Source: a virus. From it: a stretch of DNA of 41,338 nt. Shown one piece after another: positions 19,457 through 38,200 of the stretch. A model generated the notes under the pieces. The model was not told the origin of the DNA. It was given only the letters and a program-made list of their open reading frames with translations, and did not search any database. Positions within the stretch are counted from its first letter, which is position 1, and the number at the start of each line of letters is the position of its first letter. Made by a program: the position numbers and the translations under genes. The stretch spans positions 1-41,338 of the IMG/VR virus record IMGVR_UViG_3300029319_000127. One strand, written 5' to 3'.

Positions 19457-20506
19457 ATGTACGAGTACGACCAAAACGGAAATCTTATTTTAACTTCATC
19501 TGGACAACAGTTATTAGACCAAAACGCGGCTGCTTTTGCTACTAGCGATATGGGCACTAGTACTTATGTTCAACCTGCTAATACGTATCAAGCAACAGAA
19601 ACTGCACCTGTACCAAGACAACTTATGGATCCAATGCAAACAATTGGTAGACTAGATGCTAAGCCTATATCTGTTGGTCCATTACCAGGTCCAAATCCGT
19701 TACCTGGAACTTTGATACAAGCGCCTATGTATGGACCGTTCAATCAAGCAGCTAAAACCGCAGCTACTAGCGGTGTTACTAGTGCGGCCACAAGCGCTGC
19801 AGCAAGTGGAGCTACAAACGCTTTTGCAAACATGTCTCCTGCAATGCAAGCTGGTATGATTGGTGGTATAGCTGGTATAGCTCAAGGACTTATTGGTAGA
19901 AGAAAAAGAAGAGCTGAGCAAAGAGCTGCAGCTGCAGAATATAGAGGTATGAGAAGAAGATTTGAAAATTTGGACACTAGCAATTTAGCGGCTAATATTC
20001 AAAATCCGTTTGCAGAAAATGTTTTTGAAGATTTAACAGTAAATAGACAAGCTGCAGAATTTGCAGCGCAACAAGGTCAACAAGCAAGAGCAAACATAAT
20101 GAGTCAGTTTAGAGGTGTTGCTGGAGGTAGTGGTATAGCAGGCCTAGCACAATCTTTAGCAAATCAAGCTACTACAGCATCACAGCAAGCAGCTGCTAGT
20201 ATAGCTATGCAAGAACAGCAAAACGCAAAATTAGCAGCTCAAGGACAATTACAAGTTCAAAAAGGCGAAGCTATGGTACAACAAATGCAATTAGCTGGTG
20301 AAGAAAGAGCTAGAGCATTAGATTACAGACAAACAGGTACGTTGTTTGGCATGGCTCAACAAAGAAAAAGAGCTGCAGATCAAGCTGTAGCGCAGGCAAA
20401 TGCAGCGCTATATGGTGGTATTGGTCAGTTAGCAGGTACATTTTTAACTGGTGGTATGAGTAATATGGCTCAAGGTTTAACATTTATGGGTAATACACCC
20501 GCATAG
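19457..20506 (+). CDS. Internal virion (ejection) protein, gp14-like by context
   Basis: A 349-residue Ala/Gln-rich protein. Residues 1-115 are a low-complexity, Pro/Ala/Thr-rich tail. Around 126-150, MSPAMQAGMIGGIAGIAQG is hydrophobic and followed by a basic cluster (GRRKRRAEQR), a probable membrane-inserting helix with a positive flank. Residues 155-300 are helical and coiled-coil-prone (ANIMSQFRGVAGGSGIAGLA, then ALDYRQ). The C-terminus has a second Gly-rich hydrophobic stretch (ALYGGIGQLAGTFLTGGM). Small ejection proteins of podoviruses (T7 gp14 type) are similarly helical with membrane-active segments and are the first of three adjacent genes. This one heads a run with the 523- and 2243-residue genes. 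Confidence 0.65.
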   Translation: MYEYDQNGNLILTSSGQQLLDQNAAAFATSDMGTSTYVQPANTYQATETAPVPRQLMDPMQTIGRLDAKPISVGPLPGPNPLPGTLIQAPMYGPFNQAAKTAATSGVTSAATSAAASGATNAFANMSPAMQAGMIGGIAGIAQGLIGRRKRRAEQRAAAAEYRGMRRRFENLDTSNLAANIQNPFAENVFEDLTVNRQAAEFAAQQGQQARANIMSQFRGVAGGSGIAGLAQSLANQATTASQQAAASIAMQEQQNAKLAAQGQLQVQKGEAMVQQMQLAGEERARALDYRQTGTLFGMAQQRKRAADQAVAQANAALYGGIGQLAGTFLTGGMSNMAQGLTFMGNTPA

Positions 20507-20513
20507 AATTGAT

Positions 20514-22085
20514 ATGGCAAAAAAACAAGGTAGTTTAAATTATAATCCAAACACAGTTTTAATAGCTGGCGAGGGTCAAATGAGAGATGCGCAAGCACAA
20601 GCTTCTTTAGCTGGTGGTGCAGCTTTTTCTGCTGGCTTTCAAAAAGCTTTTATGGCTGGTTTAGAAGAAAACAGAAGGCAACAAGCTCAACACGAAGCTA
20701 TGATGATTGATCTTGGAGGCATAGACAATATACAGTATTTAGATGGTGAAAACAAAATAGCTGTAACTAATTTTTTAAGAACTCAAAGAGATGAGTATTC
20801 TAAACTTGCTGAATTATATTCAAAAACAAAAGATGTAGCATTATTAGATAAAATGAATGCTATAAAAGTTTCTTTTAATAATTTAAATACAGATATAGCT
20901 ACTTTATATAACGACAAAGTAGGTTATGTAGACGCTTCTGACAAAGGACAATTAGTGCTAGGCGGTAAAAGTTTTGATCAAAAATTTTATGACAATGTAC
21001 TTTTAAGTGGTAGTGGTTTTAAAAGTATAAATGAAAACGGTAGACTTGTTTACGACAAAGACGGTAAAGACGTTTTATATGCTGATGTAGCAGGTAAATG
21101 GAACGTAAAAAATAATATTGCAGAAAGTTTGGTTCTACAAACTGACGCTGCTATAGTTAAAAACGCTCAAAAAGGTTTTGGCTTTGATGCTATTGGCGTT
21201 AAAAATTCTTTCAAGTCTGGTTTTAAACAGACTGGTCCTGAAGGTTTACAAGTAATGGCAGAAACAGATATAACAGGTGATGATGACTTTACATTGCCAA
21301 ACGGACAAAGAGTTGGTAATATGTCATTTGAGTTTATGTGGGGCGCTGGTATGTTAGACGGCAAGTATTATTCTAAAAGAAAATCAGGTGATACAAGCTG
21401 GATGTTTGACAATGCTAACACTGATGAATTAAACGATTTAATGTCTCAGTATTACACTGATGTTATGCAAGACAGACACAAAAGTAATTTAAAACAACAA
21501 GGTGGTGGAAGTCAGTTTGGAACTAGTTTTTTAAGTCAACCAGGTAAAGGTAAAGTTTTTGTAGATGGTGGTGCTGATAATATAGATTATAATACAGGTG
21601 TAAAGTTACTTAATGATCTTTCAAAAGCCGCGCAAGGACAATCAGTTACTGTAAATGTTACTGGAACTCTTTATAAGTATAACCCAAGCACAAATCAATG
21701 GACAGATCAAGATGACAATCTTGTGGCTGGATCAATACAAAAATTTATTACAGATACTTTAGGTATTTCTGATCCTGCGTTTTTAGGTATTAAAGCTAGT
21801 GGCAATATTCAAGGGGCAACTAGTGGTGTTAACTTTAATATATTTAAAGAAGAAGAAGATGAAGCGCAAAAAAAATTAGAAAATTTATTTCCAGATTTTG
21901 GTTTTTCACACATTAATTTTGGACCAAGAGACAGGATAACAGTTACAGACCCTAATGGCAATGAAATAGGAACTTTTGATTTTGACTATAGTGATGATGA
22001 AGATGCTAAAAAAGAAGCTATAAGATTTAATAATGCAATGGAAAGGTATTTGCAAAAAACACAATTACCAATAATAAAAAAATAA
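20514..22085 (+). CDS. Internal virion protein, middle member of the ejection trio
   Basis: A 523-residue protein lying 7 bp after the previous gene and abutting the next one exactly (stop then ATG). Residues 1-140 are helical and Ala/Gln-rich (GEGQMRDAQAQASLAGGAAF, GLEENRRQQAQHEAMM). The middle is mixed, with Gly/Asp turns, and the end (about 465-523) is acidic then basic (DFDYSDDEDAKKEAIRFNNA). It has no signal peptide or certain membrane helix. It has the position and helical Gln/Ala-rich start expected for the second ejection protein of podoviruses (T7 gp15 type), but no sequence signature proves it. It is probably packaged inside the head and released with the genome. Confidence 0.6.
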   Translation: MAKKQGSLNYNPNTVLIAGEGQMRDAQAQASLAGGAAFSAGFQKAFMAGLEENRRQQAQHEAMMIDLGGIDNIQYLDGENKIAVTNFLRTQRDEYSKLAELYSKTKDVALLDKMNAIKVSFNNLNTDIATLYNDKVGYVDASDKGQLVLGGKSFDQKFYDNVLLSGSGFKSINENGRLVYDKDGKDVLYADVAGKWNVKNNIAESLVLQTDAAIVKNAQKGFGFDAIGVKNSFKSGFKQTGPEGLQVMAETDITGDDDFTLPNGQRVGNMSFEFMWGAGMLDGKYYSKRKSGDTSWMFDNANTDELNDLMSQYYTDVMQDRHKSNLKQQGGGSQFGTSFLSQPGKGKVFVDGGADNIDYNTGVKLLNDLSKAAQGQSVTVNVTGTLYKYNPSTNQWTDQDDNLVAGSIQKFITDTLGISDPAFLGIKASGNIQGATSGVNFNIFKEEEDEAQKKLENLFPDFGFSHINFGPRDRITVTDPNGNEIGTFDFDYSDDEDAKKEAIRFNNAMERYLQKTQLPIIKK

Positions 22086-25000
22086 ATGTCAGATTTTAGT
22101 TATAACAACGTAAATATTTCTGTTCAAGAGGTAGCTGACGCTGCTAAAAAATCTAACATGTCTATAGAAGATTATATTGATTCTGTAGATGGTTTAGAGT
22201 ATACTGTTGCGCCTGAAGATAGAGGTTTTTTTTATGACTTATACGTTGCTTATAAACAAGGTGTAAACGCTGGTGCTAGTGTTGATGAGGCTTTTGATAT
22301 ATATAAACAAGGCAAAGATATTTCAGATGAAGATTTGCAAGGCGCAATAGATGCCGTAAGTAAAATGCAAGAAATTGGGCCTACTAACGAACAATATGAA
22401 TTTGCAAAAGCTAAAAAGAAATATGGTGGAGGTGCTTTTGGTACATTGAAAGCTTTAAGAGAAAACCCTGGATTTTTACCTCAACTATTAGTTAGTAGTT
22501 TTGCTACTATGGGTAGTTCTTTTTTAGACTCAGAAGAGGTTGCTGGAACTACATTGGCTTCTGCTGGTGTTGGAGCTGGTTCAGGCGCTTTAATAGCTGG
22601 TCCTGGCGGTGCTATTAAAGGTGCTTTGTCTGGAGGTATAGGAGGTTTAGTAGGTTCTATGGAAACAGGTTTGACTTTAATGGATTTAATTCAAGAAGAA
22701 TTAGGTGAAGGTGTTGAACTTACAAAAGAAAATGTTAGAGAAATTTTATCTAATGAAGAAAAGTTTAATGATATAAAACAAAAATCAGCTGCTAGAGGTA
22801 GAAACATAGGTGCTGTAGAGTCTTTGGCTTTTGTACTTTCAATGGGTGCTAGTAGAGCTTTTACTAGTATAGGAAAATTTCGTACTGCTGCTTTAGCAGG
22901 TACTGCAATTGAAACTGCTGGTGGTTTTGCTGGTGAAATTGCTGGTCAAATAGGTGCTGGGCAAAAAATAGATACAGGTGAAGCTGTGCTAGAAGGTATT
23001 GGTGAAATAGCTGGTCCTGGAACTATTATTAATGTAAGTGATGTTATGAGAACAGCACTTCAAAGAAGTAAATATAATATTAATGGCGAAACAAGATCAA
23101 AAAAAGAAATAGTTGATATATTAAATAATAAAAATTTAACAGCACAAGAAAAAACTAAAATAAAATTTAGTATTGAAAATGATAATCAATTTGAAAATTT
23201 TGTTAATGAAAAATTAAACGATATAAGTCTTGAATCTAAAATAGATCCTAGAGTTTCTGAAGATAAAGATAGGGCAGATTTAGTTAATCTACAAAAACAA
23301 TTAGAAAAAGCTAAAGCTGATGCTAATAAAACTGGTATATTTAGAGTAGTTGATGCGCAAGCTAACGTAGAAAATATAGAAACACAAATAGACAATATAA
23401 TAAATAAATATAGCGATGTTGATCGTAGAACTTCTGATGTTAGGGCTAGAAAGAAAACAGCTGAACAAGTTGAAGAAAATTTAGCAGATCAAGTTTTTGA
23501 AGCAAGCATGTCCTTTGCTAAAAAACATGCTAAGCTATATAACTTAAATATTGTAGACGGTTTATCAAAAACTGAAATAGAAAAACAATACGGTAAAAAA
23601 GCTGCTAAATCCAATGGTTTTATTACACCAGAAGGTGATATAATTATTAATAAAGATGTAGCTAAAACAAAAGGTATTATAGGTTCTAATACAGCTAACC
23701 ATGAATTATTACACGGTATAATACAAGCTAGTGGTAAAGCTGATAAGATAGATCAAAAACTTGTAGATGATTTTTTAAATAAGATAGGTGAAAAAAATAA
23801 AGCTATTGTATTAAAAAGAATAAAAGATAATTATACTGAAGATTATATTAAGAAAAATAAAGACGAGTACTTTACAGCTTTTTCAGATGGAGTTGAAAAT
23901 GGAGAAATAACTTTTGACAACGGTATATTTACAAGAGTTATAGATTCTGTAAGAAATCTATTACAAGATCTTGGTATTAGAAAAGTTGATTTTGAGTCAG
24001 CTGATGGTATGTATAACTTTTTAAAAGATTACAATAGAAGTATACATAAAGGAGCTTTAAGTAAAGGTATTAGAAGAGCAACTGGCGCTACAGCTGCACC
24101 TACACAAACAAAACAATCAAGAAGTCAACTTGTTGATACTATAAACGATTTACAACAAGGTGCTGTTACAAAAGCTGACTTTCAAAAACCAGAAGTGTTT
24201 AATAAAGTTTTTGAAGCTATACAGCCAGGTGGTGCTATAAACAATTATATAAAAAGTTTGCAAATGAGTCCTGAAAAAACTCAAGAAACTATAGACTCTG
24301 TAACTGATCGTTTAATAAACTTTGATCCTGCTGCTAAAAGAAAAGATGGTAGCGTTATTGGGCCAAGAGGTCTTGGTGAGTTTATAATGGCTAACGTAGG
24401 TTTTGGTAAACTAGATGCTGCTAAAAAATTGGCTACTAAAGCTAAGAAAACTAAAAGAGAAACTACTATAGATACTAAAGAAGCTAAAGAAATAGCTGAC
24501 ACACCTGTAGAAACTACACAAGAATTAGCTAATGGACCTAGAATTTTAAGTACTTTTGACGTGCCTTTAGAAGATAATGTTAATACTACTATAATAGAAC
24601 GAGTTGAAAATTTAATAGAAGAAAACCCTGCTAATCTAAAAGAACAAGCTGATAAACTTGTGTTAAATGAAATAAGAAAAGATTTAGACGGCGCTATACC
24701 TAAAGTAACGTCAAAAGGAGTTACTGCAGAGTATGAAACTTTTATAAGAGAAACTTTTGATGAAAATGTAAAAAGTATAGGTATTGAAAAAAGTAGAAAA
24801 TTACCTTGGTTTGAAAAGAAAAAAGTAGGTAGAAAAGATTATAAAAATATAGATCCTGAAACAGGTAAAGTTAGTAATTATAGAAAAGATGTTTTTGAAA
24901 GCAAAGCTAGTAAGCCTAAGTATATTAAATATTATACGCAAGGAAAACCAGGTGTTTTAAGAGAAAGAAGAAGAGCGTTAATATTAATGATTGCTGAAAG

Positions 25001-28000
25001 AAAAAAAGATGTAGCTGTTGATAACTATATAGAAGAAAACTCAGGTAACATAGACGCTGTAATGCAAGCAAAATTAAGAGCTGCTTCAAGAACAGCAGAG
25101 CTTGTAGAGCAAGAGTTAAAAACTTTTGATACTATAAAGTTTAGTAATTATTTTGTTAATAAAACAGAAGAGTATTATAAGAGCCCAGCTAATAAAGGTA
25201 AAAAACTATATCGTAATAGAGGTTTTGCTTTTGAGCAAGTAATTATAGATTTAATAAGAAGTTATGGTCTTGATCCCGATGTTCTTGAGCTAAAAGTAGA
25301 TATTAATACTGAAAAAGGTGGTTTAGCTGACGTTTCGTTTACTTTAATGGGAGTTAGACGTAGTTTAGAGCTAAAGTTTGGTAAAACTCCAAAAGAAGCT
25401 ACTAACGTGCCTATGGGCGCTGTATCTTGGAGTTTTTTTGATCTCGCTAAAAAAACTTTTGGTTTAGCTAAAAATAGACCTGCTTCGTACAGCTCTATTG
25501 ATTTTAACGGATTAGCAAAAGCTTTATTAGCTGACAATGGACCGTTAGAAAAATATATTAATAGATATAATGAACTTCGCGTGCTTTACAACAATGGTGT
25601 TAAAACAGTTGAAGTAAACGGCAAGGCTATGCCTTTAAATACAGAAGGTAGGCGTTTAGAAGGTGAAGAAGCGTTGTCTGAGCTAAACCAAATAGGAGAT
25701 AAAATATCTGAAAACATATATCATATATTACAAAAAGAAAAATTAGCTAATTTTAATATAAGACAAACAAGTAAAGATGGTCAACCACTTGTTGATCATT
25801 ACGAGGCTAAAGTAGGTAAAGATCCTGTAACTGGAGAAGAAGTTCTTGGTGTAGACTTTCTAGAACCACTTGGTGTAGGTTTGTATAATGTAAGTGATCC
25901 AGCACAAAGTCCTTTGCCGCAATTACCTTGGGTAAAAGATGCTTTTACTGTTACTAGCAATGTTTATCTAAAAAATTCTGGCTCAATAGGTAAAAAAGTA
26001 AATGGTAAAAAAGTTTCTACCATAATACCGGGTGGTAGTAAAATAATAAGATTTAATATACAAGTTCAAAACTCTGTTGCTGAAGTTAAAAAAGTTTCTG
26101 ATTATAGCGTAACTAACGAAAGTTCTTTTATAGCTTTGTTAGAGCAAGCTGCTTCTTTGCAAAAGCCAGTTGAGCAAGTAAATAAATATTCAAACTCTGT
26201 TGATAATGCTAGAGTAACAAAACAATATCATAACAATAAAAGAGGTATGAGTACTTTTGACTTTGACGAAACGTTAATTGTTGAGGGTAAAAACTTTGTT
26301 ACAGCTACTAAAGGTGATGATGTTGTGCAAATTAGTAGTGCTGAATGGCCTATATTAGGTCAAAAATATGCAGATGATGGTTATACTTTTGATTTTAAAG
26401 ATTTTGTAAATGTAAGAGGTGGTAAAGAAGGTCCATTGTTACAAAAAATGAAAAATCAAATTAAAAAGTTTGGACCTGAAAATGTGTTTGTATTAACAGC
26501 AAGACAGCAACAAGCAGATACAGCAATACATGGTTGGTTAAAATCACAAGGTATTGATATACCTATAGAAAATATAACAGGTTTAGGTGATAGTACAGGC
26601 GAGGCAAAAGCTTTATGGATGCTTAATAAGTTTGAGCAAGGCTATAATGATATGTATTTTGTTGACGATGCCCTGCCTAATGTTGATGCTGTTAAAAACG
26701 CTTTAGAGCAATTAGATATTAAATCAGATGTACAACAAGCTAAATTAAAGTTTAGCAATAGCATAGATAGTGATTTTAATAATATTTTGCAAGACGTTAC
26801 TAATATAGATGCTAAAAAACGTTTTAGCGAAACTAAAGCTAGAAAACGCGGCGCTAGTAAAGGTAAGTTTAGATATTTTATACCGCCATCTCATGAAGAT
26901 TTTGTAGGGTTACTTTATAATTTTATGGGTAAAGGTGAGTTAGGTAATAAACATAGGGATTTTTTTGAAAAAACTTTAATTAGACCTTTAAATAGAGCTT
27001 ATAGAGAATTAAACGCTGCAAAACAAGCTATAGCAAACGATTATAGAGCGTTAAGAAAAAATAATCCTGACGTTGTGAAAAAGCTTAATCAAAAAACGCC
27101 TGATGGTGATTTTACTTACGAAGATGCTGTAAGAGTTTACTTGTGGAATAAGCACGGGCATAAAGTTGAAGGCTTAAGTAATGCTGATTTAAAAGAGTTA
27201 AGCGATTTAGTAAACAATGATATTGCTTTAAAAAATTATGCAGAACAGTTAAATATTATATCTAAACAAAAAGAATATGTTGCACCAACAGCAGATTGGG
27301 AAGTTGGTGACATTAGAACTGATTTAACTGATGCTACTGGTAGAATAGGTAGAGAAAAATTTTTTGCAGAGTTTTTAGAAAATGCAGAAGCTACTTTTTC
27401 AAAAGAAAATTTAAATAAAATTGAAGCTGGATTTGGCTCTGGCGTAAGAAACGCTATTGAAGATGTTTTGTATAGGATAAAAACAGGACAAAATAGACCA
27501 TCAGGCCAAAATGTTTTAGTTAATAAATTAATGAACTATTTAAACGCTGCTGTTAGCTCTGTCATGTTCTTTAACGTAAGATCATCTGTACTACAGCAAA
27601 TGTCATTAGTTAATTTTATAAATTTTGGTGACAATAATATATTTAAATTTGCAAAAGCTTTTGCTAATAAAAAACAGTATTGGGCTGACTGGGCTTATTT
27701 ATTTAACTCAGATTATATGAAACAAAGACGTGCTGGTATACAAACAGATGTTAACGGTGCTGAACTTGCTGCTTCTGTTGCTAACTCAAAAAATCCTGTG
27801 CAAACTGTAATAAGAAAACTATTACAACTAGGATTTTTACCTACTCAAATTGGTGATAATATTGCAATTGCTACTGGTGGTGCTGCTATGTATAGAAATA
27901 GAGTTAATACTTATTTATCACAAGGTTTAAGCAAAGTTGAAGCTGAAAAAAAGGCTTTTGTAGATTTTCAAGAAATAGCAGAAAGTACACAACAGTCTGC

Positions 28001-28817
28001 AAGGCCTGATATGATTAGTCAACAACAAGCTTCACCATTAGGAAAACTAATACTAGCTTTTCAAAACGTAACGTCACAATATAATAGACTTGGTAAAAAA
28101 GCTATGTTAGATTTAATTAACAGAAGAAAAACACCACCTTATACAGATCAGTTTAAAAGTGATATGTCAAATGCAAATAAAATAGTTTATTATTTTGCTG
28201 CTCAAAACTTAGTGTTTTATTCTTTACAGTCTGCTTTATTTGCAATGATGTTTGATGACAACAAAGATGACGAGCAGTTTTTAAAGAAAAAAGAACGTAT
28301 GATAAATGGTAGTATTGATTCTGTGCTTCGTGGCGCCGGTATAATGGGAGCTGTAATATCTACTTTTAAAAACATGGCTATAAAGTTTGCAGAGCAAAGA
28401 AACAAAACATATAACAAAGACGAAAGTGCTGTTATAATGGAAATGTTAAATGTATCACCACCATTAGGTATTAAAGCTAGAAAAATAGTTAATGCTGAGA
28501 AAACATTAAATTACAATAAAAAAGTAATTGAAGAGATGAATACGTTTGATATTGATAATCCTGTTTGGCCAGCTGTAACTAATTATATAGAAGGTATAAC
28601 AAACGTTCCTGTTAACAGATTATATAATAAAACACAAAATGTTAGACAAAGTTTAGATTCGCAGTATAGCGGTTTTCATAGACTGCTAATGTTTTTAGGT
28701 TGGAGTCAGTATAATTTAGGTTTAGAAAACAAAGAGCTCGAAGCTGTTAAAAGTAGAGTTAAAAAGTCTAGACAAGGTATGAGAAAAAGAAAAAAAAGTA
28801 GACCAGTTTCAATATAG
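22086..28817 (+). CDS. Giant polyvalent virion protein: metallopeptidase, nuclease and HAD motifs
   Basis: A 2243-residue protein with several regions. Residues 1-120 are helical. Residues 150-345 hold Gly/Ala-rich hydrophobic stretches (VGAGSGALIAGPGGAIKGAL; FAGEIAGQIGAG), probably membrane-active. Near 535-600, H539-E-L-L-H543 is a zinc metallopeptidase motif and E594 (DEYFTAF) is a plausible third ligand. Residues 1045-1100 fit a PD-(D/E)XK-type core: E1050, D1082, E1095-L-K1097. Residues 1388-1560 fit a HAD phosphatase: DFDET (1392-1396), T1471 in FVLTAR, K1508, and D1527-D1528 in YFVDDALPN. Residues 1590-2243 are helical, with a hydrophobic segment near 2031-2056 and a basic tail. This multi-enzyme makeup fits the published class of phage polyvalent proteins that enter cells with DNA. 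As the last of three adjacent internal-protein genes it is probably the T7 gp16 analogue; no lytic transglycosylase motif is seen. Confidence 0.8.
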   Translation: MSDFSYNNVNISVQEVADAAKKSNMSIEDYIDSVDGLEYTVAPEDRGFFYDLYVAYKQGVNAGASVDEAFDIYKQGKDISDEDLQGAIDAVSKMQEIGPTNEQYEFAKAKKKYGGGAFGTLKALRENPGFLPQLLVSSFATMGSSFLDSEEVAGTTLASAGVGAGSGALIAGPGGAIKGALSGGIGGLVGSMETGLTLMDLIQEELGEGVELTKENVREILSNEEKFNDIKQKSAARGRNIGAVESLAFVLSMGASRAFTSIGKFRTAALAGTAIETAGGFAGEIAGQIGAGQKIDTGEAVLEGIGEIAGPGTIINVSDVMRTALQRSKYNINGETRSKKEIVDILNNKNLTAQEKTKIKFSIENDNQFENFVNEKLNDISLESKIDPRVSEDKDRADLVNLQKQLEKAKADANKTGIFRVVDAQANVENIETQIDNIINKYSDVDRRTSDVRARKKTAEQVEENLADQVFEASMSFAKKHAKLYNLNIVDGLSKTEIEKQYGKKAAKSNGFITPEGDIIINKDVAKTKGIIGSNTANHELLHGIIQASGKADKIDQKLVDDFLNKIGEKNKAIVLKRIKDNYTEDYIKKNKDEYFTAFSDGVENGEITFDNGIFTRVIDSVRNLLQDLGIRKVDFESADGMYNFLKDYNRSIHKGALSKGIRRATGATAAPTQTKQSRSQLVDTINDLQQGAVTKADFQKPEVFNKVFEAIQPGGAINNYIKSLQMSPEKTQETIDSVTDRLINFDPAAKRKDGSVIGPRGLGEFIMANVGFGKLDAAKKLATKAKKTKRETTIDTKEAKEIADTPVETTQELANGPRILSTFDVPLEDNVNTTIIERVENLIEENPANLKEQADKLVLNEIRKDLDGAIPKVTSKGVTAEYETFIRETFDENVKSIGIEKSRKLPWFEKKKVGRKDYKNIDPETGKVSNYRKDVFESKASKPKYIKYYTQGKPGVLRERRRALILMIAERKKDVAVDNYIEENSGNIDAVMQAKLRAASRTAELVEQELKTFDTIKFSNYFVNKTEEYYKSPANKGKKLYRNRGFAFEQVIIDLIRSYGLDPDVLELKVDINTEKGGLADVSFTLMGVRRSLELKFGKTPKEATNVPMGAVSWSFFDLAKKTFGLAKNRPASYSSIDFNGLAKALLADNGPLEKYINRYNELRVLYNNGVKTVEVNGKAMPLNTEGRRLEGEEALSELNQIGDKISENIYHILQKEKLANFNIRQTSKDGQPLVDHYEAKVGKDPVTGEEVLGVDFLEPLGVGLYNVSDPAQSPLPQLPWVKDAFTVTSNVYLKNSGSIGKKVNGKKVSTIIPGGSKIIRFNIQVQNSVAEVKKVSDYSVTNESSFIALLEQAASLQKPVEQVNKYSNSVDNARVTKQYHNNKRGMSTFDFDETLIVEGKNFVTATKGDDVVQISSAEWPILGQKYADDGYTFDFKDFVNVRGGKEGPLLQKMKNQIKKFGPENVFVLTARQQQADTAIHGWLKSQGIDIPIENITGLGDSTGEAKALWMLNKFEQGYNDMYFVDDALPNVDAVKNALEQLDIKSDVQQAKLKFSNSIDSDFNNILQDVTNIDAKKRFSETKARKRGASKGKFRYFIPPSHEDFVGLLYNFMGKGELGNKHRDFFEKTLIRPLNRAYRELNAAKQAIANDYRALRKNNPDVVKKLNQKTPDGDFTYEDAVRVYLWNKHGHKVEGLSNADLKELSDLVNNDIALKNYAEQLNIISKQKEYVAPTADWEVGDIRTDLTDATGRIGREKFFAEFLENAEATFSKENLNKIEAGFGSGVRNAIEDVLYRIKTGQNRPSGQNVLVNKLMNYLNAAVSSVMFFNVRSSVLQQMSLVNFINFGDNNIFKFAKAFANKKQYWADWAYLFNSDYMKQRRAGIQTDVNGAELAASVANSKNPVQTVIRKLLQLGFLPTQIGDNIAIATGGAAMYRNRVNTYLSQGLSKVEAEKKAFVDFQEIAESTQQSARPDMISQQQASPLGKLILAFQNVTSQYNRLGKKAMLDLINRRKTPPYTDQFKSDMSNANKIVYYFAAQNLVFYSLQSALFAMMFDDNKDDEQFLKKKERMINGSIDSVLRGAGIMGAVISTFKNMAIKFAEQRNKTYNKDESAVIMEMLNVSPPLGIKARKIVNAEKTLNYNKKVIEEMNTFDIDNPVWPAVTNYIEGITNVPVNRLYNKTQNVRQSLDSQYSGFHRLLMFLGWSQYNLGLENKELEAVKSRVKKSRQGMRKRKKSRPVSI

Positions 28818-28838: not shown

Positions 28839-29885
28839 ATGAAAAAACTAATTATATTATTAATTATACTAAGTTCTTGTGTAACACCTAAAAAATGTTG
28901 CTCACAAAGCTTTAAAAAAATATTTAAGTTCTCTACGTTTTACGCAGCTGCAAACGGCGGTACATCCATATCGGATGTAGAAACATTTTCAGTTACAAAC
29001 GGACTAGAAACTGCCACAATACAAACACCATATGATTACAACTTAGCTTTAGGTATACGTAAAATAGCTAGATTTGGTTATGAAAATAGAGCGCAAACAT
29101 TTTACGATGGCACTGAAAACTCGTGGTCAGATGGTGCTAACGTAGGTAAAGTAAAAGGATTAGAGTTTTTATTTGAAATAGATTATAAAAGACAACAAGG
29201 TAATGAATATTTAGATCAGCATCACTTTATAAGATTTGTTGATGATAAGTATATATTAAAAGGTGAATATTTAGAAGATGGTTTTGCAGATATAAAATAC
29301 TTTGAAACATCAGAAAGATATAGATATAAAGTTAATGACAAATTGTCGTTTAATGCTGGGCTTGCTCAAAGGTTGTCCGAACCGTACGGATATGATCCCT
29401 TGGCAGAGTGGATGCTAAGCAATGGCAATATACATTACACTTACCTAGCACTACAAGAAGGCTATAATGTCGATGTAGCTGCTAGTGAGTATTTTTCTCC
29501 GAGTGGAGAACTCGTTGCTACAAGCAAAGAGGTTTGGGAAGAGGTTGTTATACCAACCGTGCTAGCAGATTATACTGAAAGAAAACGTAATGAGTTAGAC
29601 CAAATAATACAGAACTCTTTTGTATTAGGTTTAGATTACTATTATTACACCAAGTCTTATTGGGCTCATGCTTGGGCTAATATCATGCCTTGGCATTATG
29701 ATGATGACGGTGAGTTTTCTTATCACAAATTTAACAATGGCCAATGGCTCGATTATTCTGGCGGTGCAATACTTGGTTACAAGCTAAATAAGTCGTTAGG
29801 TATGTTTATTGAGGGAAAGTACAATAAATATTGGAATAGAGAGTGGTATGACTTTAAATTTGGAGTGAATTACGTAATCTTTTAA
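28839..29885 (+). CDS. Putative envelope lipoprotein / outer-membrane barrel-like protein
   Basis: A 348-residue protein with a lipoprotein-type signal: MKKLIILLIILSSC, where L-S-S-C14 fits a lipobox. A conventional signal peptidase site further on (near CCSQ) is an alternative. The mature part has many short Tyr/Phe/Trp-rich strands, such as FFLEID-like and KLSFNAGLAQRL, then GGAILGYKLNKSLGMFIEGK, and it ends WYDFKFGVNYVIF. A final amphipathic strand ending in Phe is typical of outer-membrane beta-barrels. A helical stretch near 228-258 (SKEVWEEVVIPTVLADYTER) interrupts the strands. It may be displayed in the host outer membrane during infection, for example to block or alter receptors. That role is inference. 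It starts the accessory block after the giant virion gene and ends 2 bp before the nuclease gene. Confidence 0.6.
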   Translation: MKKLIILLIILSSCVTPKKCCSQSFKKIFKFSTFYAAANGGTSISDVETFSVTNGLETATIQTPYDYNLALGIRKIARFGYENRAQTFYDGTENSWSDGANVGKVKGLEFLFEIDYKRQQGNEYLDQHHFIRFVDDKYILKGEYLEDGFADIKYFETSERYRYKVNDKLSFNAGLAQRLSEPYGYDPLAEWMLSNGNIHYTYLALQEGYNVDVAASEYFSPSGELVATSKEVWEEVVIPTVLADYTERKRNELDQIIQNSFVLGLDYYYYTKSYWAHAWANIMPWHYDDDGEFSYHKFNNGQWLDYSGGAILGYKLNKSLGMFIEGKYNKYWNREWYDFKFGVNYVIF

Positions 29886-29887
29886 CT

Positions 29888-30247
29888 ATGTATCAATACA
29901 AAGTAAAGCTTGATAGAGTTATAGACGGAGACACTATAGATTGTTACATAGATTTAGGCTTTAATATCAATACAAAAAAGCGTGTTAGGTTTGTAGGTAT
30001 TAATACTCCAGAGTCTAGAACACGAGATCTTGAAGAGAAAAAAAGAGGTTTAGCTGCAAAAGCTAGATTAGTAGAAATATTAGAAAACGCTAACGAGATA
30101 CATCTTGATTCTCATGGCGTTGGTAAATACGGTAGAGTGCTAGGACAATTGCATATTAGCGATGAAAGCTCACCAACAATGTTAAATGTAAACGAATTAT
30201 TAATTAAAGAAGGCCATGCTGTAGAATATCATGGCGGTAAACGTTAA
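29888..30247 (+). CDS. Staphylococcal-nuclease-like (SNase/thermonuclease) protein
   Basis: A 119-residue single-domain protein of the SNase family, which cleaves DNA or RNA with Ca2+. The hallmark parts are present in order: VIDGDTIDCYIDLG (D15, D18), KRVRFVGINTPESR (R34 and E42, equivalent to the catalytic R35 and E43), and GKYGRVLGQL (R83, equivalent to R87), ending with NELLIKEGHAVEYHGG. N39 stands where the calcium ligand D40 occurs in the classical enzyme, a change also found in other family members. There is no signal peptide, so it probably acts in the cytoplasm or on the virion. Host DNA breakdown or DNA processing is plausible. It lies 2 bp after the lipoprotein-like gene. Confidence 0.92.
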   Translation: MYQYKVKLDRVIDGDTIDCYIDLGFNINTKKRVRFVGINTPESRTRDLEEKKRGLAAKARLVEILENANEIHLDSHGVGKYGRVLGQLHISDESSPTMLNVNELLIKEGHAVEYHGGKR

Positions 30248-30524: not shown

Positions 30525-30845
30525 ATGAAATACATTTTATTATTAATGTTGTTTTGCAGTAGTATATCTGCTCAAATAACAGTAACACATTTTAACGCAG
30601 AGTGGAACGCTGCAAATAAAGTTGAGTGGTTTGAAAAACTAGAAGACTGTGATTTATCTAAAGTTTGTATAGTTGCAGAGCCAAAACTACAAGACAAACA
30701 TAAGATAATTATAGTACCTACTATAGTTATATTTAAAGACGGAGAAGAAATAAAAAGATACCAAGCAGACCTTAGTTTTAAACTGCTTGCTACAAGGAAA
30801 GAGATACAGAATTTTATTAATGAACAAATAATGAGCGACTTCTAA
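30525..30845 (+). CDS. Secreted thioredoxin-fold protein lacking active-site cysteines
   Basis: A 106-residue protein with a cleavable-looking signal peptide (MKYILLLMLFCSSISAQ). The mature part matches the thioredoxin plan: strand and active-site position VTHFNAEWNAAN, a helix VEWFEKLEDC, then the cis-proline strand IIIVPTIVIFKDGEEIKRYQ (P65). In active thioredoxins the W27 position is followed by CxxC; here it is NAAN (N28, N31), so redox catalysis of the usual kind is not expected. C42 and C48 remain and may form a structural bond. It is probably a binding or chaperone-like protein in the host periplasm. The start follows the previous TAA directly, and its stop overlaps the next ATG by one base. 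Confidence 0.75.
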   Translation: MKYILLLMLFCSSISAQITVTHFNAEWNAANKVEWFEKLEDCDLSKVCIVAEPKLQDKHKIIIVPTIVIFKDGEEIKRYQADLSFKLLATRKEIQNFINEQIMSDF

Positions 30846-33800
30846 TGAAAAATTTAATATTATTATTGCTGTTACCATTTGTAACGTTTTCACAAAATAC
30901 TTGGGTTAACTACCAAGTGCAGTTTGATTTTTACGCACCGTCAGAGTCACACTTTTTTATGGTGTCTGATGCTAATGGTGATACGGCAATGTTTTACCAG
31001 CCAACAACTCCTTATGAGTTTTTAGACACCACAATATTTATAAACTCTGGTAGTTATACGGTTTCATTAATGGATAGTTGGGGTGACGGTTGGACATCTA
31101 ATCAACCAGCTTCGTTTAAAATGCGTAACTTGTGTCAAGGTTTAATTATAAATTGGGATCCAGTTGTAGGTTCATTTTTTCAAAGAGATACCACTGTAAA
31201 CATACTACCATGCCCACCACCTATTCTTGGATGTATGAATCCTATTGCTTTAAACTACGACTCATTAGCAAATGTTGATGATGGAAGTTGTGTGTTTCCA
31301 CCTTGCAATGGTGTAGTAAATGATACTGCGTGGCAAATGTGTTGGGGTGCTCAAGCAGCTATATCATGGGAGTGGCAAACTGATAGCAATATAAATTGTA
31401 ACGTGATTAGATTACACTATGGTGCTGAAAGTGGCTATAACGCTACTTTTAATGGTTTCTGGCCTAGTGGTGGTTGGAGCAACTTTGCAGTTGGTGCAGG
31501 ACCAGGACAAATGCCACCTAACTGGAACGAAGAACATTATTTAGTATTAGAGTTTGTTGATAGTAGTTTTTCAGACACAATGTTCTTTACGCCTACAGCT
31601 TGTATACCGGGTTGTACAGATCCAATGCAACAATCATATAATCCATGGGCTACAACAGATGACGGTTCATGTGCTGGTACTACATGTGATACGGCTACTG
31701 AGTATCAGATAACAATGGAAATTACTCTTGATAACTGGCCAAACGAAACTTCATGGATAATGAACAGTGGTGGTGTAATAGATGAAGCACCACAAGGTAC
31801 TTATAACTTTAATGATATAGGACAAACATTTACTTATACTTTTTGTATAGATCAAAACATAGGTTTTGAATTAATATTAAACGATAGCTACGGTGATGGG
31901 CTTGCTGGTTCTACATCTGGCGGATCGTTAGATGGTAACGTGGTTATATATGACTGTAACGGTGATACTATATGGATGTTGCCTGATCCAGCTTTTGGTA
32001 ACGTAGCTTATTCAGGACCACTAAATGGTGTGCCTTGTAATGTAACGCCAGATATATATGGTTGTACAGATGATGATTATGTAGAGTATGTTGATAGTGC
32101 TAATGTAGATGATGGTAGTTGTTTAACACTACATACTTACGGCTGTACAGATCCAGCTGCTTTTAACTACGATCCAAACGCTACAATAATGGATTTAATA
32201 CCTGATTGTCATTATACATTAATATTGGAAGATGATGCTGGTGATGGTTGGGGTAATTCATATTTAGGTATATCACAAGGACCAATGCTATGGAACTTTA
32301 CAATGGGACCTGGTTCTTATGCTGATACGTTTAATTTAATATTAGATACAGATTTACCAGTAACAATATATTACTTTGAAGTTGGTGGACCACAAACACC
32401 ACCTGAAGAAGTACAGTTTCAAACATGGCATAACTCTTTTAAACTTATAAACGCTAATGGTGTTGTACTATTAGAAGAAGGTACTAATCCGTTTGCTAAC
32501 AATGGTCAAGGTGCTTTACAAGAGTTTGATAGTCCTTTTTGGCATACATATTCTGCAGTACCTTACTGTGGTGATTACTGTATACCTACAGTATTAGGTT
32601 GTATGGACTCAACAGCTTTTAATTATGCAGACTCTGCTAATACAGATGACGGTAGCTGTATACCTGTAATTTTAGGTTGTACTAATCCACTTGCATTCAA
32701 TTATGATGCTTTTGCAAATGTAGATGACAGTAGCTGTGTAAGCACTATTGTTGGTTGTATGGACACCACCGCGTTTAACTACAATCCATTTGCTAACGTA
32801 AACGATCAGGCATCATGTGTACCTGTTATATACGGTTGTATGGATGACACTATGTTTAATTATAATCCTGCAGCTAATACACCTGATACTTGCATACCAG
32901 TTATATTTGGTTGTACTGACGCTTTAGCTTTTAATTATGATAGTTTAGCAAATACAAATAACAACTCTTGTATACCATTTATATACGGATGTACTAATCC
33001 TGCAGCAATAAATTACGACCCATTAGCAAACACTGATGATTCAACTTGCATAGGCGTAATATATGGTTGTACTGACGCTACAATGTACAACTACGATCCA
33101 TTAGCAAATACAGATAACGGTAGCTGTATACCTTTTATTTACGGATGTACTGACTCTACAATGTTTAACTACGATCCGTTAGCTAATACAAATAACAACA
33201 CTTGTGTACCGTTTGTTTATGGTTGTACTAATCCTATAGCTTTAAACTTTAATCCTAACGCTAATGTAGATGATTTTAGCTGTATATTACCAATATATGG
33301 ATGTATGGATAGCACAGCATTTAATTATGATCCACTAGCTAATACTGACAACGGTACTTGCGTACCAGTAATATACGGTTGCACAAACCCAATAGCGCTA
33401 AACTACTGTGATACTTGTAATACAGATGACTTTAGTTGCATACTACCAATTTATGGCTGTACTGACAGCACAATGTTTAATTATAATCCACTAGCAAATG
33501 TTGACAACAATAGTTGTATACCTTACATATATGGTTGCACGGATCCTGCTGCGTTCAATTATAACCCATCAGCGAACACGGAGGATTTTAGTTGTATTGC
33601 TATTGTTTATGGGTGTATGGATAGTTTGGCTCTTAACTTTGATCCACTTGCTAACACGGATAACGGTTCGTGTATTGAAGTCATTGTGGGTTGCATGGAT
33701 TCAGAAGCATATAACTACGAACCAACTGCTAACGTTGATGATTCTTTATCTTGCCGTTACAGTGCTGGTTGTATTACTGGCGATAGCATCCCTTACTGGC

Positions 33801-34057
33801 TCAACGACCCATGTTACGCTTGGGTAATAGATATAGACGAATACTGTTGTGAAAACGAATGGGACACTATTTGTCAAGCAACATACGATTATTGTGACGG
33901 AACTTGGTCTGGTCCGTTACCAACAAGAATACAAGCTGAGAAGAAGCTAGTAGCTGTAACTGATCTTCTTGGTAGACCAACAAAAATAAATAAAAACAAG
34001 CTTCTATTATATATATACAGCGACGGAAGCGTAACTAAACAATTAATAAAAAAATAA
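30845..34057 (+). CDS. Large secreted repeat protein with T9SS-type C-terminal tail
   Basis: A 1070-residue protein with a signal peptide (MKNLILLLLLPFVTFSQN) and 19 copies of a roughly 26-residue Cys repeat, consensus YGCTDxxAFNYDPLANTDDG then SC, mainly over residues 127-970. Between the first five repeats lie three longer beta domains, each with a DxxGDG motif (DSWGDGW at 77-83, NDSYGDG, EDDAGDGW). Residues 1028-1070 (KKLVAVTDLLGRPTK, then LLLYIYSDGSVTKQLIKK) resemble the type A sorting tail of Bacteroidota T9SS cargo: a DLLGR strand, an aromatic strand ending in a DG turn and a basic last strand. Such Cys/Asp repeats are common in surface proteins of marine Bacteroidota. The phage product therefore probably crosses the outer membrane by the host T9SS. 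Transfer from a host surface gene is likely; a role in adhesion or receptor masking is inference. Confidence 0.75.
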   Translation: MKNLILLLLLPFVTFSQNTWVNYQVQFDFYAPSESHFFMVSDANGDTAMFYQPTTPYEFLDTTIFINSGSYTVSLMDSWGDGWTSNQPASFKMRNLCQGLIINWDPVVGSFFQRDTTVNILPCPPPILGCMNPIALNYDSLANVDDGSCVFPPCNGVVNDTAWQMCWGAQAAISWEWQTDSNINCNVIRLHYGAESGYNATFNGFWPSGGWSNFAVGAGPGQMPPNWNEEHYLVLEFVDSSFSDTMFFTPTACIPGCTDPMQQSYNPWATTDDGSCAGTTCDTATEYQITMEITLDNWPNETSWIMNSGGVIDEAPQGTYNFNDIGQTFTYTFCIDQNIGFELILNDSYGDGLAGSTSGGSLDGNVVIYDCNGDTIWMLPDPAFGNVAYSGPLNGVPCNVTPDIYGCTDDDYVEYVDSANVDDGSCLTLHTYGCTDPAAFNYDPNATIMDLIPDCHYTLILEDDAGDGWGNSYLGISQGPMLWNFTMGPGSYADTFNLILDTDLPVTIYYFEVGGPQTPPEEVQFQTWHNSFKLINANGVVLLEEGTNPFANNGQGALQEFDSPFWHTYSAVPYCGDYCIPTVLGCMDSTAFNYADSANTDDGSCIPVILGCTNPLAFNYDAFANVDDSSCVSTIVGCMDTTAFNYNPFANVNDQASCVPVIYGCMDDTMFNYNPAANTPDTCIPVIFGCTDALAFNYDSLANTNNNSCIPFIYGCTNPAAINYDPLANTDDSTCIGVIYGCTDATMYNYDPLANTDNGSCIPFIYGCTDSTMFNYDPLANTNNNTCVPFVYGCTNPIALNFNPNANVDDFSCILPIYGCMDSTAFNYDPLANTDNGTCVPVIYGCTNPIALNYCDTCNTDDFSCILPIYGCTDSTMFNYNPLANVDNNSCIPYIYGCTDPAAFNYNPSANTEDFSCIAIVYGCMDSLALNFDPLANTDNGSCIEVIVGCMDSEAYNYEPTANVDDSLSCRYSAGCITGDSIPYWLNDPCYAWVIDIDEYCCENEWDTICQATYDYCDGTWSGPLPTRIQAEKKLVAVTDLLGRPTKINKNKLLLYIYSDGSVTKQLIKK
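31223..33754 (+). repeat. 19-copy coding repeat GCTDxxAxNYDPxANxDDGSC
   Basis: Copies 1-4 are interspersed with other domains between 31223 and about 32210. Copies 5-19 run in tandem from 32591 to 33754, with a period close to 78 bp (26 codons). Each unit has two cysteines, one in GC(T/M) and one in the SC end, and Asp/Asn-rich turns. Codons differ freely between copies (GGTTGT, GGATGT, GGCTGT) while the protein pattern is kept. The array is therefore not a very recent amplification. One unit (copy 15) has two extra cysteines (NYCDTCNTDD), and copies 4 and 8 are irregular at the end. Confidence 0.9.
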
Positions 34058-35247: not shown

Positions 35248-38200
35248 ATGAAATTTATTGGGGCACACATATTTGATTATGATGCTACCTTTCGTGGTGA
35301 TGTAACCATTGAAGGTAACTTGACTATATCTAACTCTGCTTCTCAAACTATTTCATTTGGTGATAATGATAGTCTGTATTTTGGTGATGGCAACGATTTG
35401 CAAATAGTACACGACAGTAGTAACTCGTATATACATCACAATGGTACAGGTAACTTGTACATGAAAGCTGACACTGGTAATATTCAGATTATAAACTATA
35501 CTAACGACGCTGACATTGTACTACAATCGGACGATGGTTCGGGTGGAGTTACGCCATATATAACGTTAGATGGTAGTGCGACAGAAACTGTTTTTAATAA
35601 AGCTGGTAGATTTGCAGATAATGTTAAAGCTAGGTTTGGAAATGGTGGTGATATGTATTTACAGCACGATGGTACTGATAGTTTTATTGTAAATACTAAT
35701 GGTGATTTAACAATATCAAACCAAGCAGATGACAAAGATATAATCTTCTCAAGTGATGATGGATCGGGAGGTGTAGAAACATATTTCTTTTTAGATGGTA
35801 ACGCTGGTGGTGCTAATCCAACAACTATATTTCCAGATGATTCTAGACTTGCTATTGGCTCTGGCCAAGACCTAAAGCTATATCACTCGTCAGGTATAAG
35901 TTATATTGATATTGCAAATGGTAATCTTACATTTAGACAAACAACAGATGATGGTGATATTATTTTTCAATGCGATGACGGTTCCGGTGGTTTAGCTGAA
36001 TACTTTAGAGTTGATGGTAGTAGTGAAAACGTATTATTTAGCAAGTTAATAAAACTAAGTGATAACGTAGAGTTAAGAGTTGGTGATGGTAACGATATTA
36101 AAATGTTTTCTGATGGCACCGATGGATATATAAGTGGTGAAACTGGTGACTTATATATAAGGCAAAGAGGTGACGACAAAGATATTATATTCCAAAGTGA
36201 CGACGGTAGCGGCGGTGTAACAGAATACTTTAGTTTGGATGGAAGCGCTGGTGTTTTAAGAATGACTAAAGATATGTATGTGCCTGAATATATATATCAT
36301 CAAGGCGACGACAATACTTATTTTGGTTTTGAAGGCGCTGATCAATGGAGAGTTGTTGCTGGAGGTAGTGAAAAAATTCATGTTAATACTTCTAGAATAA
36401 GGTTTAACGAAGATGTTTTACTTCTCGATAGTCATAAATTAAATATAGGAAGTGATAATGATTTAGAAATATATCACGACGGTACAGACAACCACATAGA
36501 AGCTACTTCAACTTTAAACATAGGTACCGCAAACAGTGGTGTAGCTGTAAACATAGGTCACACTACTTCTGAAACAACAATAAATGACAACCTTACAGTT
36601 ACAGGAGATCTTACTGTAAATGGTACTACGGTAACAGTAGACACTACAAACCTAAATGTACAAGACAAAAATATAATATTAAATTACAGCTCTGGTGATT
36701 CTTCATCTACAGCAGACGGAGCTGGTATTACAATACAAGACGCTGTAGATTCTTCAACTGATGCCACTATTCTGTGGGATGCAACTAACGATGAATTTGA
36801 TTTTAGCCATAGTATTAATATAAGTGGAAACGCAAAGGCTAACACATATTACGTGGGCAATACTTCTAATTATTTAGATGTTGCTACAGGTCTAAGATTA
36901 AGATCTGATAGCAATGGTATTAGATTAATGCCTAATGGTACTGACGCTGGTTATATAAAACATACTGGTATAGATTTAGTACAACCTTTAACAATAACAT
37001 CGTCATCTGTTACTGATTTTGTAAAGCTTGTTTCAGGTGGGTCTAGCGCAAATCCTGTAAAACTTATATTTGAAAAAAGTGGTTCAGAGCAGGGTATTAT
37101 TGAATATAACAGAAACGGTGATTTAGAAATATATAATACTGACGGTGATGGTGGTGTAATGATTAGTGGTTCTGCTTCTGCAGACCCTGATTTTTATATT
37201 AGCCACGCCGGCGCTTCTACTTTTAAAAGTACTTTAACTGTAGGTGAAGACGACACTGGTCATGACGTTATATTCTATGGCGCTACGTCTGGAAGATATT
37301 TACAGTGGGATGAAAGCGAAGACACGTTATTGCTTCGCGATAACACAGAGCTTAAGTTTGGTAATGGTGGTGATTTAAGAATGTATTTTAATGGCACTAA
37401 TGGTCATATAAAAAACGAGGGTGGTAAGTTTTATATTACTAACTACAGTGATGATGAGGATATTATTTTTAGATGTGACGACGGTAGTGGTGGTGTAACA
37501 GAGTATTTTAGATTAGATGGTGGTAATGTAAATGTAGTTGCTAGCAAAAACTTTCAATTTTTAGATGACGTTAAAGTAAAGCTGGGCAGCTCTACTGACA
37601 TGGAATTATTTCATAATGGTAGTAATAGTTTTATAGATAACTATACCGGCGATATGTATATAAGGCAAAACGCTGATGACAAAGACCTTATATTTCAATG
37701 CGATGATGGTAGCGGTGGTGGAGAAACATATTTTTATTTAGATGGGTCGGCTAGCAGCGGTGACCCTTACACTGTTTGGCCTGATAATTCGATAGCTGCT
37801 TGGGGTACTGGCGTAGATTTAAGAATACAGCATGATGGCTCTACAGCTAGTATATTTAATACAACAGGTCATTTACAAATAATAAACTATGCTGATGATA
37901 AAGATATAATTTTTAAATCAGATGATGGTAGTGGTGGAGTTACATCTTACCTTACATTAGATGGAAGCGCGGGGTATACTACAGTGCAGAAAAAAATGCA
38001 ATTTGGTGACAACACTCAAGCTACGTTTGGTCTTAGTGATGATTTAAATTTAAAACACGTGTCTGGGCACAACTATATCACTGGAGAAACTGGTGATTTA
38101 TATATAAGAAACCAAGCAACCGACGGTGATATTATATTTCAATCAGATGATGGTTCTGGTGGAGATGCAGAATACTTTAGATTAGACGGTGGTGCTGGCG

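Follow-up and report, generated by a model that had tools for sequence, protein, structure and literature searches.

The window analyzed here is the complete IMG/VR virus record IMGVR_UViG_3300029319_000127 (41,338 nucleotides), and the gene under study, located at 22086..28817 on the plus strand, encodes a giant protein of 2243 residues that appears to be of the polyvalent ejection type. Relatives of this single ATG-initiated open reading frame occur in 39 + 80 + 80 viral loci. Direct reading of the frame confirms that it is open without interruption over 2243 codons from its ATG, and that it contains HELLH (residues 539–543), E594, E1050, D1082 and E1095-L-K1097, followed by the HAD residues T1471 (LTAR), K1508 (GEAKA) and D1527-D1528 (FVDDA). 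An earlier note on this DNA had named these residues and proposed a virion protein combining HExxH peptidase, PD-(D/E)XK-like and HAD motifs; every residue it named was found at its place, and HAD motif I, which it had left unnumbered, is D1392-F-D-E-T1396. The chance expectation of HExxH is approximately 0.005 occurrences per protein of the giant's composition. By sequence, the whole giant has no significant match in Pfam, NCBIfam or PDB. The last open reading frame of the window is cut short where the record stops; the window is therefore probably a genome fragment, and further genes of the phage would lie outside it.

Relatives were collected by viral contig searches, which yielded 39 loci, at least 445 stretches with a HAD alignment and at least 538 with the C-terminus alone, and the family counts given below rest on the matches listed in these searches. 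Fold assignments rest on the order of secondary-structure elements in two AlphaFold2 models, covering residues 460–1140 and 1360–2243.

Predicted HAD phosphatase and the family core

The predicted HAD phosphatase (approximately residues 1386–1555; 26241..26750, plus strand) is assigned from residue invariance, fold order and DUF2608. Its six catalytic positions, D1392, D1394, T1471, K1508, D1527 and D1528, are invariant in 71 sequences. The model of residues 1360–2243 (predicted template modelling score 0.70) displays a HAD-like order of elements followed by a long all-helical part; motifs I, II and IV each sit where a strand ends, and K1508 belongs to the helix preceding the DD strand. A PDB fold search with this model returned a series of HAD enzymes below significance, the best being the Legionella phosphatase Ceg4 (probability 0.97, E 0.25), followed by 1zjj (0.87) and 3kzx (0.80); by sequence, the HAD profile gave chance-like PDB matches only. 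Furthermore, Pfam DUF2608, which we take to be a member of the HAD clan, is matched by 26 of 26 HAD rows, and the HAD fragment of the giant itself scores 23.4 bits against a cut-off of 22.6 over a short stretch only. The complete set of active-site residues, their invariance and the element order are in line with the HAD motifs reported by the earlier note.

Because the relatives had been collected with HAD-containing queries, a control search was run with the C-terminus only. Of the 72 distinct loci long enough to include it, 70 had the HAD, with DFDxT in 67 of these; its near-universality thus persists when relatives are picked without HAD patterns. Two loci (L216 and L217) have the same C-terminus and no detectable HAD, and the domain is therefore nearly, not strictly, universal. 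In a further locus (L039, 8417–15551), sequencing error or decay has split the giant across three open reading frames and disrupted its HAD. Of 101 distinct HAD relatives, 64 have the peptidase, with HExxH intact in 63. Among the 95 relatives with at least 1,200 residues before the HAD, the nuclease is present in nine and an uncharacterised 680-residue module in 41, and in none do they occur together; further relatives carry LPD14 and a glucosaminidase. These distributions suggest that the HAD and the all-helical C-terminus form the family core, around which the peptidase, the nuclease and the 680-residue module are swapped. Sequence comparison thus gives good support to the giant being a mosaic polyvalent protein built around a HAD core. 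Its polyvalent type, already put forward in the earlier note, is borne out by disparate domains in one chain, a place among late virion genes, module swapping, LPD14 in relatives and the fold kin described below.

A [KR]-[FY]-S motif recurs in the linkers of the giant (residues 361, 442, 1019, 1368, 1556 and 1580) and also in relatives. In the relatives, both flanks of the HAD show strong enrichment of FS[KRN], which is not seen beside the peptidase or nuclease. The idea of a general K-[FY]-S processing site is weakened by this confinement to the HAD flanks, and FS[KRN] beside the HAD is possibly a linker or a cleavage site.

C-terminal module and the ejection-type trio

The all-helical C-terminal module (residues 1590–2243; 26853..28814, plus strand) is a probable packaging or ejection part, recognized from its helical model and from fold and sequence matches. 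A BFVD fold search with the model of residues 1360–2243 gave 62 matches at E≤0.001, down to 1e-13, comprising four family members and then proteins of uncultured phages. The names of these matches include large polyvalent protein-associated, ART-PolyVal, Internal virion protein D and Gundel_1 structural protein. In addition, the C-terminus of the family, including that of the window's giant, matches the 'structural protein' gp074 of Tenacibaculum phage Gundel_1 (tblastn, 5e-4; profile, 32 bits).

The giant is preceded by two smaller genes on the same strand. The first trio protein (349 residues; 19457..20506) is of ejection type and homologous, with an E value of 1e-25, to phi18:3 gp120, a protein detected by tandem mass spectrometry (MS), and to phi38:1 gp99 and elemo gp20. 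In 23 of the 24 relatives whose flank is long enough, its gene lies upstream of the giant within 3.5 kb. The second (523 residues; 20514..22085) corresponds in size and position to Gundel_1 gp73 (511 residues) and the MS-detected phi18:3 gp121 (499 residues), with little sequence conservation. In the slot of the giant, Cellulophaga phage phi18:3 encodes gp123, a protein of 1935 residues detected as a virion protein by tandem MS, and in Gundel_1 the 2482-residue gp074 belongs to a trio of 225, 511 and 2482 residues. The corresponding phi18:3 slots thus hold MS-detected virion proteins, in agreement with the view of the earlier note that the giant is the third and largest member of an ejection-type trio; its designation as a virion protein is likewise backed by synteny and homology, through the MS of other phages.

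Upstream of the giant, genes for TerL, a portal and a head protein were identified by their PHROGs names. The closest TerL is that of podovirus ctfjg026 (65%), and others belong to Flavobacterium elemo phages, Cellulophaga phages and Tenacibaculum phage Gundel_1. In all of these TerL relatives, smaller ejection-type genes are followed by a gene for a giant, the giants including elemo gp18 (3694 residues), that of ctfjg026 (3859 residues) and phi38:1 gp101 (1691 residues). We take the phage to be a podovirus with kin in Elemovirus, Pachyviridae and Pervagoviridae. Relatives were also found on four bacterial genome contigs, three of them in metagenome-assembled genomes of Bacteroidota, and Bacteroidota are the likely hosts of this marine phage. 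One contig binned as the alphaproteobacterium Maricaulis (L134) encodes a HAD 90% identical to that of the window, and is probably a viral contig binned by mistake.

N-terminal module and predicted zincin metallopeptidase

The N-terminal module (approximately residues 100–460; 22383..23465, plus strand) contains Gly/Ala-rich, moderately hydrophobic segments, and was delimited by profile, hydropathy and PHROG 32588, which matches residues 47–444 (E 7.8e-50). Profile matches to it occur in several relatives and, at 43 bits, in the giant of podovirus ctfjg026. An initial idea that PHROG 32588 is phi38:1 gp101 was dropped, as direct comparison gave only E 0.012. Hydropathy peaks at residues 129–285, and a check of the giant for membrane-spanning segments gave a best 19-residue value of only 1.29.

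The predicted zincin metallopeptidase domain follows at approximately residues 461–680 (23466..24125, plus strand), with HELLH at 23700..23714 and E594, the presumed third zinc ligand, at 23865..23867. In a 22-sequence alignment with 18–54% identity to the query, H539, E540, H543 and E594 are the only four invariant columns. In the model of residues 460–1140, the predicted local distance difference test (pLDDT) score of the domain is mostly 93–97, and the chain runs from an N-terminal helix through three strands into the HExxH helix, with E594 at the start of a helix further on. The topology described for the zincins of polyvalent proteins is the same (PMC5512222). The fold search against the PDB with this model gave chance-level matches only (ArdC, E 4.8; MspJI, E 2.1), the peptidase profile gave chance-like PDB matches only, Pfam searches with the peptidase rows gave weak matches to M78, M90, DUF5700, DUF6782 and lethal-factor families, and no significant match to a known zincin was found with family profiles or by PDB fold and sequence searches. 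Profile comparison with hhalign likewise showed no kinship to the zincin region of the N4 virion RNA polymerase. The complete, invariant active-site residues and the zincin-like element order nevertheless speak for the HExxH peptidase of the earlier note as a zincin-type domain.

Predicted PD-(D/E)XK nuclease and the alternative module

Residues 1014–1125, approximately (25125..25460, plus strand), form a predicted PD-(D/E)XK nuclease. In the nine sequences that represent all relatives with this region, E1050, D1082, E1095 and K1097 account for four of the seven invariant columns. In the low-confidence model, E1050 lies on a helix and D1082 on a strand, with E1095 and K1097 together on the strand that follows; this order is the one needed for PD-(D/E)XK. 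The best PDB match of the nuclease profile is the Holliday junction resolvase 7bgs, at E 0.14 and thus below significance, with G-R-x-x-E, D and E-x-K aligned. Low model confidence, this insignificant PDB score and the absence of a Pfam match to the region are also what would be seen if residues 1014–1125 were a non-nuclease module, which we consider unlikely given that four correctly spaced motif residues are invariant in nine relatives and that the top PDB sequence match is itself a PD-(D/E)XK resolvase with its motif residues aligned. Of the PD-(D/E)XK-like region read by the earlier note, the motif and the element order hold up, and model confidence and the PDB score fall short; taken together, the assignment as a nuclease is moderately supported.

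The uncharacterised module of 680 residues that precedes the HAD in 41 relatives (for example, residues 1556–2256 of L030) has conserved stretches including LPeg..G.AtGv, fY and EHa.pat. In our reading, the PD-(D/E)XK domain would be an optional nuclease in an exchangeable slot, and one that is rare among relatives.

Kinase fused to the HAD in relatives

A P-loop kinase is fused to the HAD in ten loci. In eight of these (L018, L032, L148, L149, L161, L164, L185 and L212), it is nested in the HAD right after motif I, which reads DFDDTLA-TKSG beside the nested kinase, resulting in a kinase-within-phosphatase layout; the truncated L165 probably has the same arrangement, and in L036 the kinase is located behind the HAD. 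The kinase matches a PHROG named polynucleotide kinase across the whole module (1.1e-8), and one relative's HAD also matches a PHROG of this name (0.004). The fusion of a polynucleotide-kinase-like domain to the HAD lends indirect support to the idea of end repair put forward in the earlier note. The kinase also matches Pfam zeta toxin (33.7–39.4 bits), and one family member in BFVD is named UDP-N-acetylglucosamine kinase, raising the tentative alternative, which we hold at below even odds, that it is of the zeta-toxin or UDP-GlcNAc-kinase type acting on cell-wall precursors, such that the kinase–HAD pair would be no end-healing device; however, AAA_33 outscores zeta toxin, and the PHROG match spans the whole module. 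Pairwise alignment of the kinase with T4 Pnkp is confined to the Walker A region.

The same evidence bears on the substrate of the phosphatase. That the HAD acts on proteins, nucleotides or signal molecules, unrelated to nucleic-acid ends, has an even chance in our estimate: DUF2608 matches 26/26 rows, Ceg4 is the top HAD fold match and kinship to the T4 Pnkp phosphatase is undetectable, whereas in several relatives the HAD encloses a kinase with a polynucleotide-kinase PHROG match, and in others a nuclease adjoins it. Considered singly, phosphorylated nucleic-acid ends are the leading candidate because of the kinase fusions, at a little below even odds. Nucleotides or signal molecules are possible and doubtful, phosphoproteins are improbable and any other substrate is more improbable still; nucleotides or proteins are considered because of the similarity to DUF2608 and Ceg4 and the lack of kinship to the T4 Pnkp phosphatase.

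Genes downstream of the giant

The gene directly after the giant (28839–29885) encodes, by reading, a protein whose start looks like a signal peptide and whose aromatic end looks like an outer-membrane barrel; in 28 of the 60 relatives with sufficient flank, the giant is likewise followed by a homologue. A small thermonuclease-like protein (NCBIfam thermonuclease, E 1e-7) is encoded two genes downstream of the giant, at 29888–30247. The 1070-residue product of 30845–34057 has a signal-like start and many GCTDPxAxNYxxxAxxDDGSC-type repeats, and its end resembles what we take to be a type IX secretion signal of Bacteroidota. The highly repetitive open reading frame at 35248–41337, which continues past the end of the record, consists of DKDIIFQSDDGSGG-type repeats and is tail-fibre-like by appearance.

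Comparison with known systems

Our comparison reveals that the giant shares with the polyvalent proteins described by Iyer et al. in 2017 (PMC5512222) a very long chain, disparate enzyme domains, a zincin, a late-gene context and module swapping, as well as fold kin annotated as large polyvalent protein-associated and ART-PolyVal, and LPD14 in some relatives. What differs is that the HAD phosphatase is near-constant in the family of the window and forms its centre. Neither 'phosphatase' nor 'haloacid' appears as a word in the main text of that catalogue, and, relative to this main text, the HAD phosphatase and the kinase nested in the HAD of about nine relatives are new. The N4 virion RNA polymerase gp50 (PMC5512222) is likewise a giant polyvalent protein with a zincin and is injected; by contrast, the window's giant has no RNA polymerase, and the peptidase regions are unrelated by profile comparison.

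As in the ejection proteins of T7 (gp14-gp15-gp16) and P22 (reviewed in PMC8954989), small, medium and large proteins are encoded by adjacent late genes, and the large one is mostly helical and may hold an enzyme domain. The window's giant differs in its larger size, its several enzyme domains and its weaker hydrophobic segments; ejection is here suggested by the genes, and no sequence kinship to the T7 or P22 proteins is shown. By comparison, elemo gp18, phi18:3 gp123, phi38:1 gp101, Gundel_1 gp074 and the giant of ctfjg026 occupy the same gene slot, and the peptidase is common to the window's giant and elemo gp18 (profile, 31 bits) and, more weakly, ctfjg026; the remaining sequence is highly diverged.

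T4 Pnkp (PseT), a 5'-kinase/3'-phosphatase, resembles some relatives in combining a kinase and a HAD phosphatase in one chain. The layouts differ, however, since the relatives' kinase is nested within the HAD and that of T4 precedes the phosphatase. In jumbo phages, according to a 2021 review, both kinase-fused and standalone HAD phosphatases take part in RNA repair; the review does not present them as injected proteins.

Discussion

We interpret the giant as an ejection-type polyvalent core with catalytic cargo, a reading that commits to no single substrate and to which we assign a probability of about 0.72. It is favored because the motif residues are invariant and the element order is right for three folds, because the HAD is supported by HAD-fold matches and DUF2608, because the C-terminus is kin to phage polyvalent proteins, 'Internal virion protein D' and the Gundel_1 structural protein, because the trio is syntenic with MS-detected virion proteins, and because the family is mosaic, with the HAD in 70/72 control loci and a kinase nested in it. 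The open reading frame, motif conservation, mosaicism, synteny and C-terminal kinship are established computationally.

Several observations weigh against this interpretation. No HAD was found in the cultured giants examined, and the MS evidence therefore covers the gene slot and the C-terminal kin, not the HAD enzyme. The structure prediction proposed in the earlier note gave an element order that fits zincin, PD-(D/E)XK and HAD folds, but no PDB fold match of either model reached E 0.001, and the nuclease region is poorly resolved, with a pLDDT of only 50–75. The HAD has no detectable kinship to the phosphatase of T4 PseT (hhalign probability 0.4%), and the window's giant itself lacks a kinase domain. 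Virion location, ejection and activity of the giant are predictions from sequence and models, and we infer cell entry, catalysis and the substrates of its enzymes.

The late-gene position, the structural-protein kin and the frequency of the peptidase in the family would also suit an internal structural protein whose enzyme-like domains act only in virion assembly, with the peptidase, for example, maturing head proteins. We regard this as quite unlikely, since it is hard to see what the phosphatase, nucleases and kinases would do in assembly and module swapping is typical of proteins facing host variation.

For an ejected polyvalent core with catalytic cargo, the helical C-terminus would most likely function in packaging and in leaving the head, and the N-terminus, which is mildly hydrophobic, may aid membrane passage; the enzymes would travel as cargo of an ejection protein. 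As the polyvalent-protein literature suggests, the target of the metallopeptidase would probably be either a host protein or the giant, the latter being cut while still in the head or once inside the cell; self-processing has an analogy in P1 DdrB as discussed in PMC5512222. The HAD phosphatase, as the near-constant cargo, would probably act in the newly infected cell. A role of these enzymes in repair or counter-defence, as raised by the earlier note, is a hypothesis. One form of it, which we consider rather improbable, is that the virion delivers the family's proteins as a device for healing nucleic-acid ends, in which an injected HAD 3'-phosphatase, sometimes with a nested polynucleotide kinase, and an exchangeable nuclease would repair or process DNA or RNA ends cut by host defence nucleases before phage gene expression.

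If the ejected-cargo interpretation is true, widespread uncultured aquatic phages would inject a phosphatase with their DNA (at least 445 IMG/VR stretches with the HAD and at least 538 with the C-terminus), and HAD phosphatases and the kinase-in-phosphatase fusion would join the known cargo of polyvalent proteins. The role of an injected phosphatase in the first minutes of infection would become testable, and the layout of a constant core with swappable slots would provide a natural catalogue of ejected enzymes.

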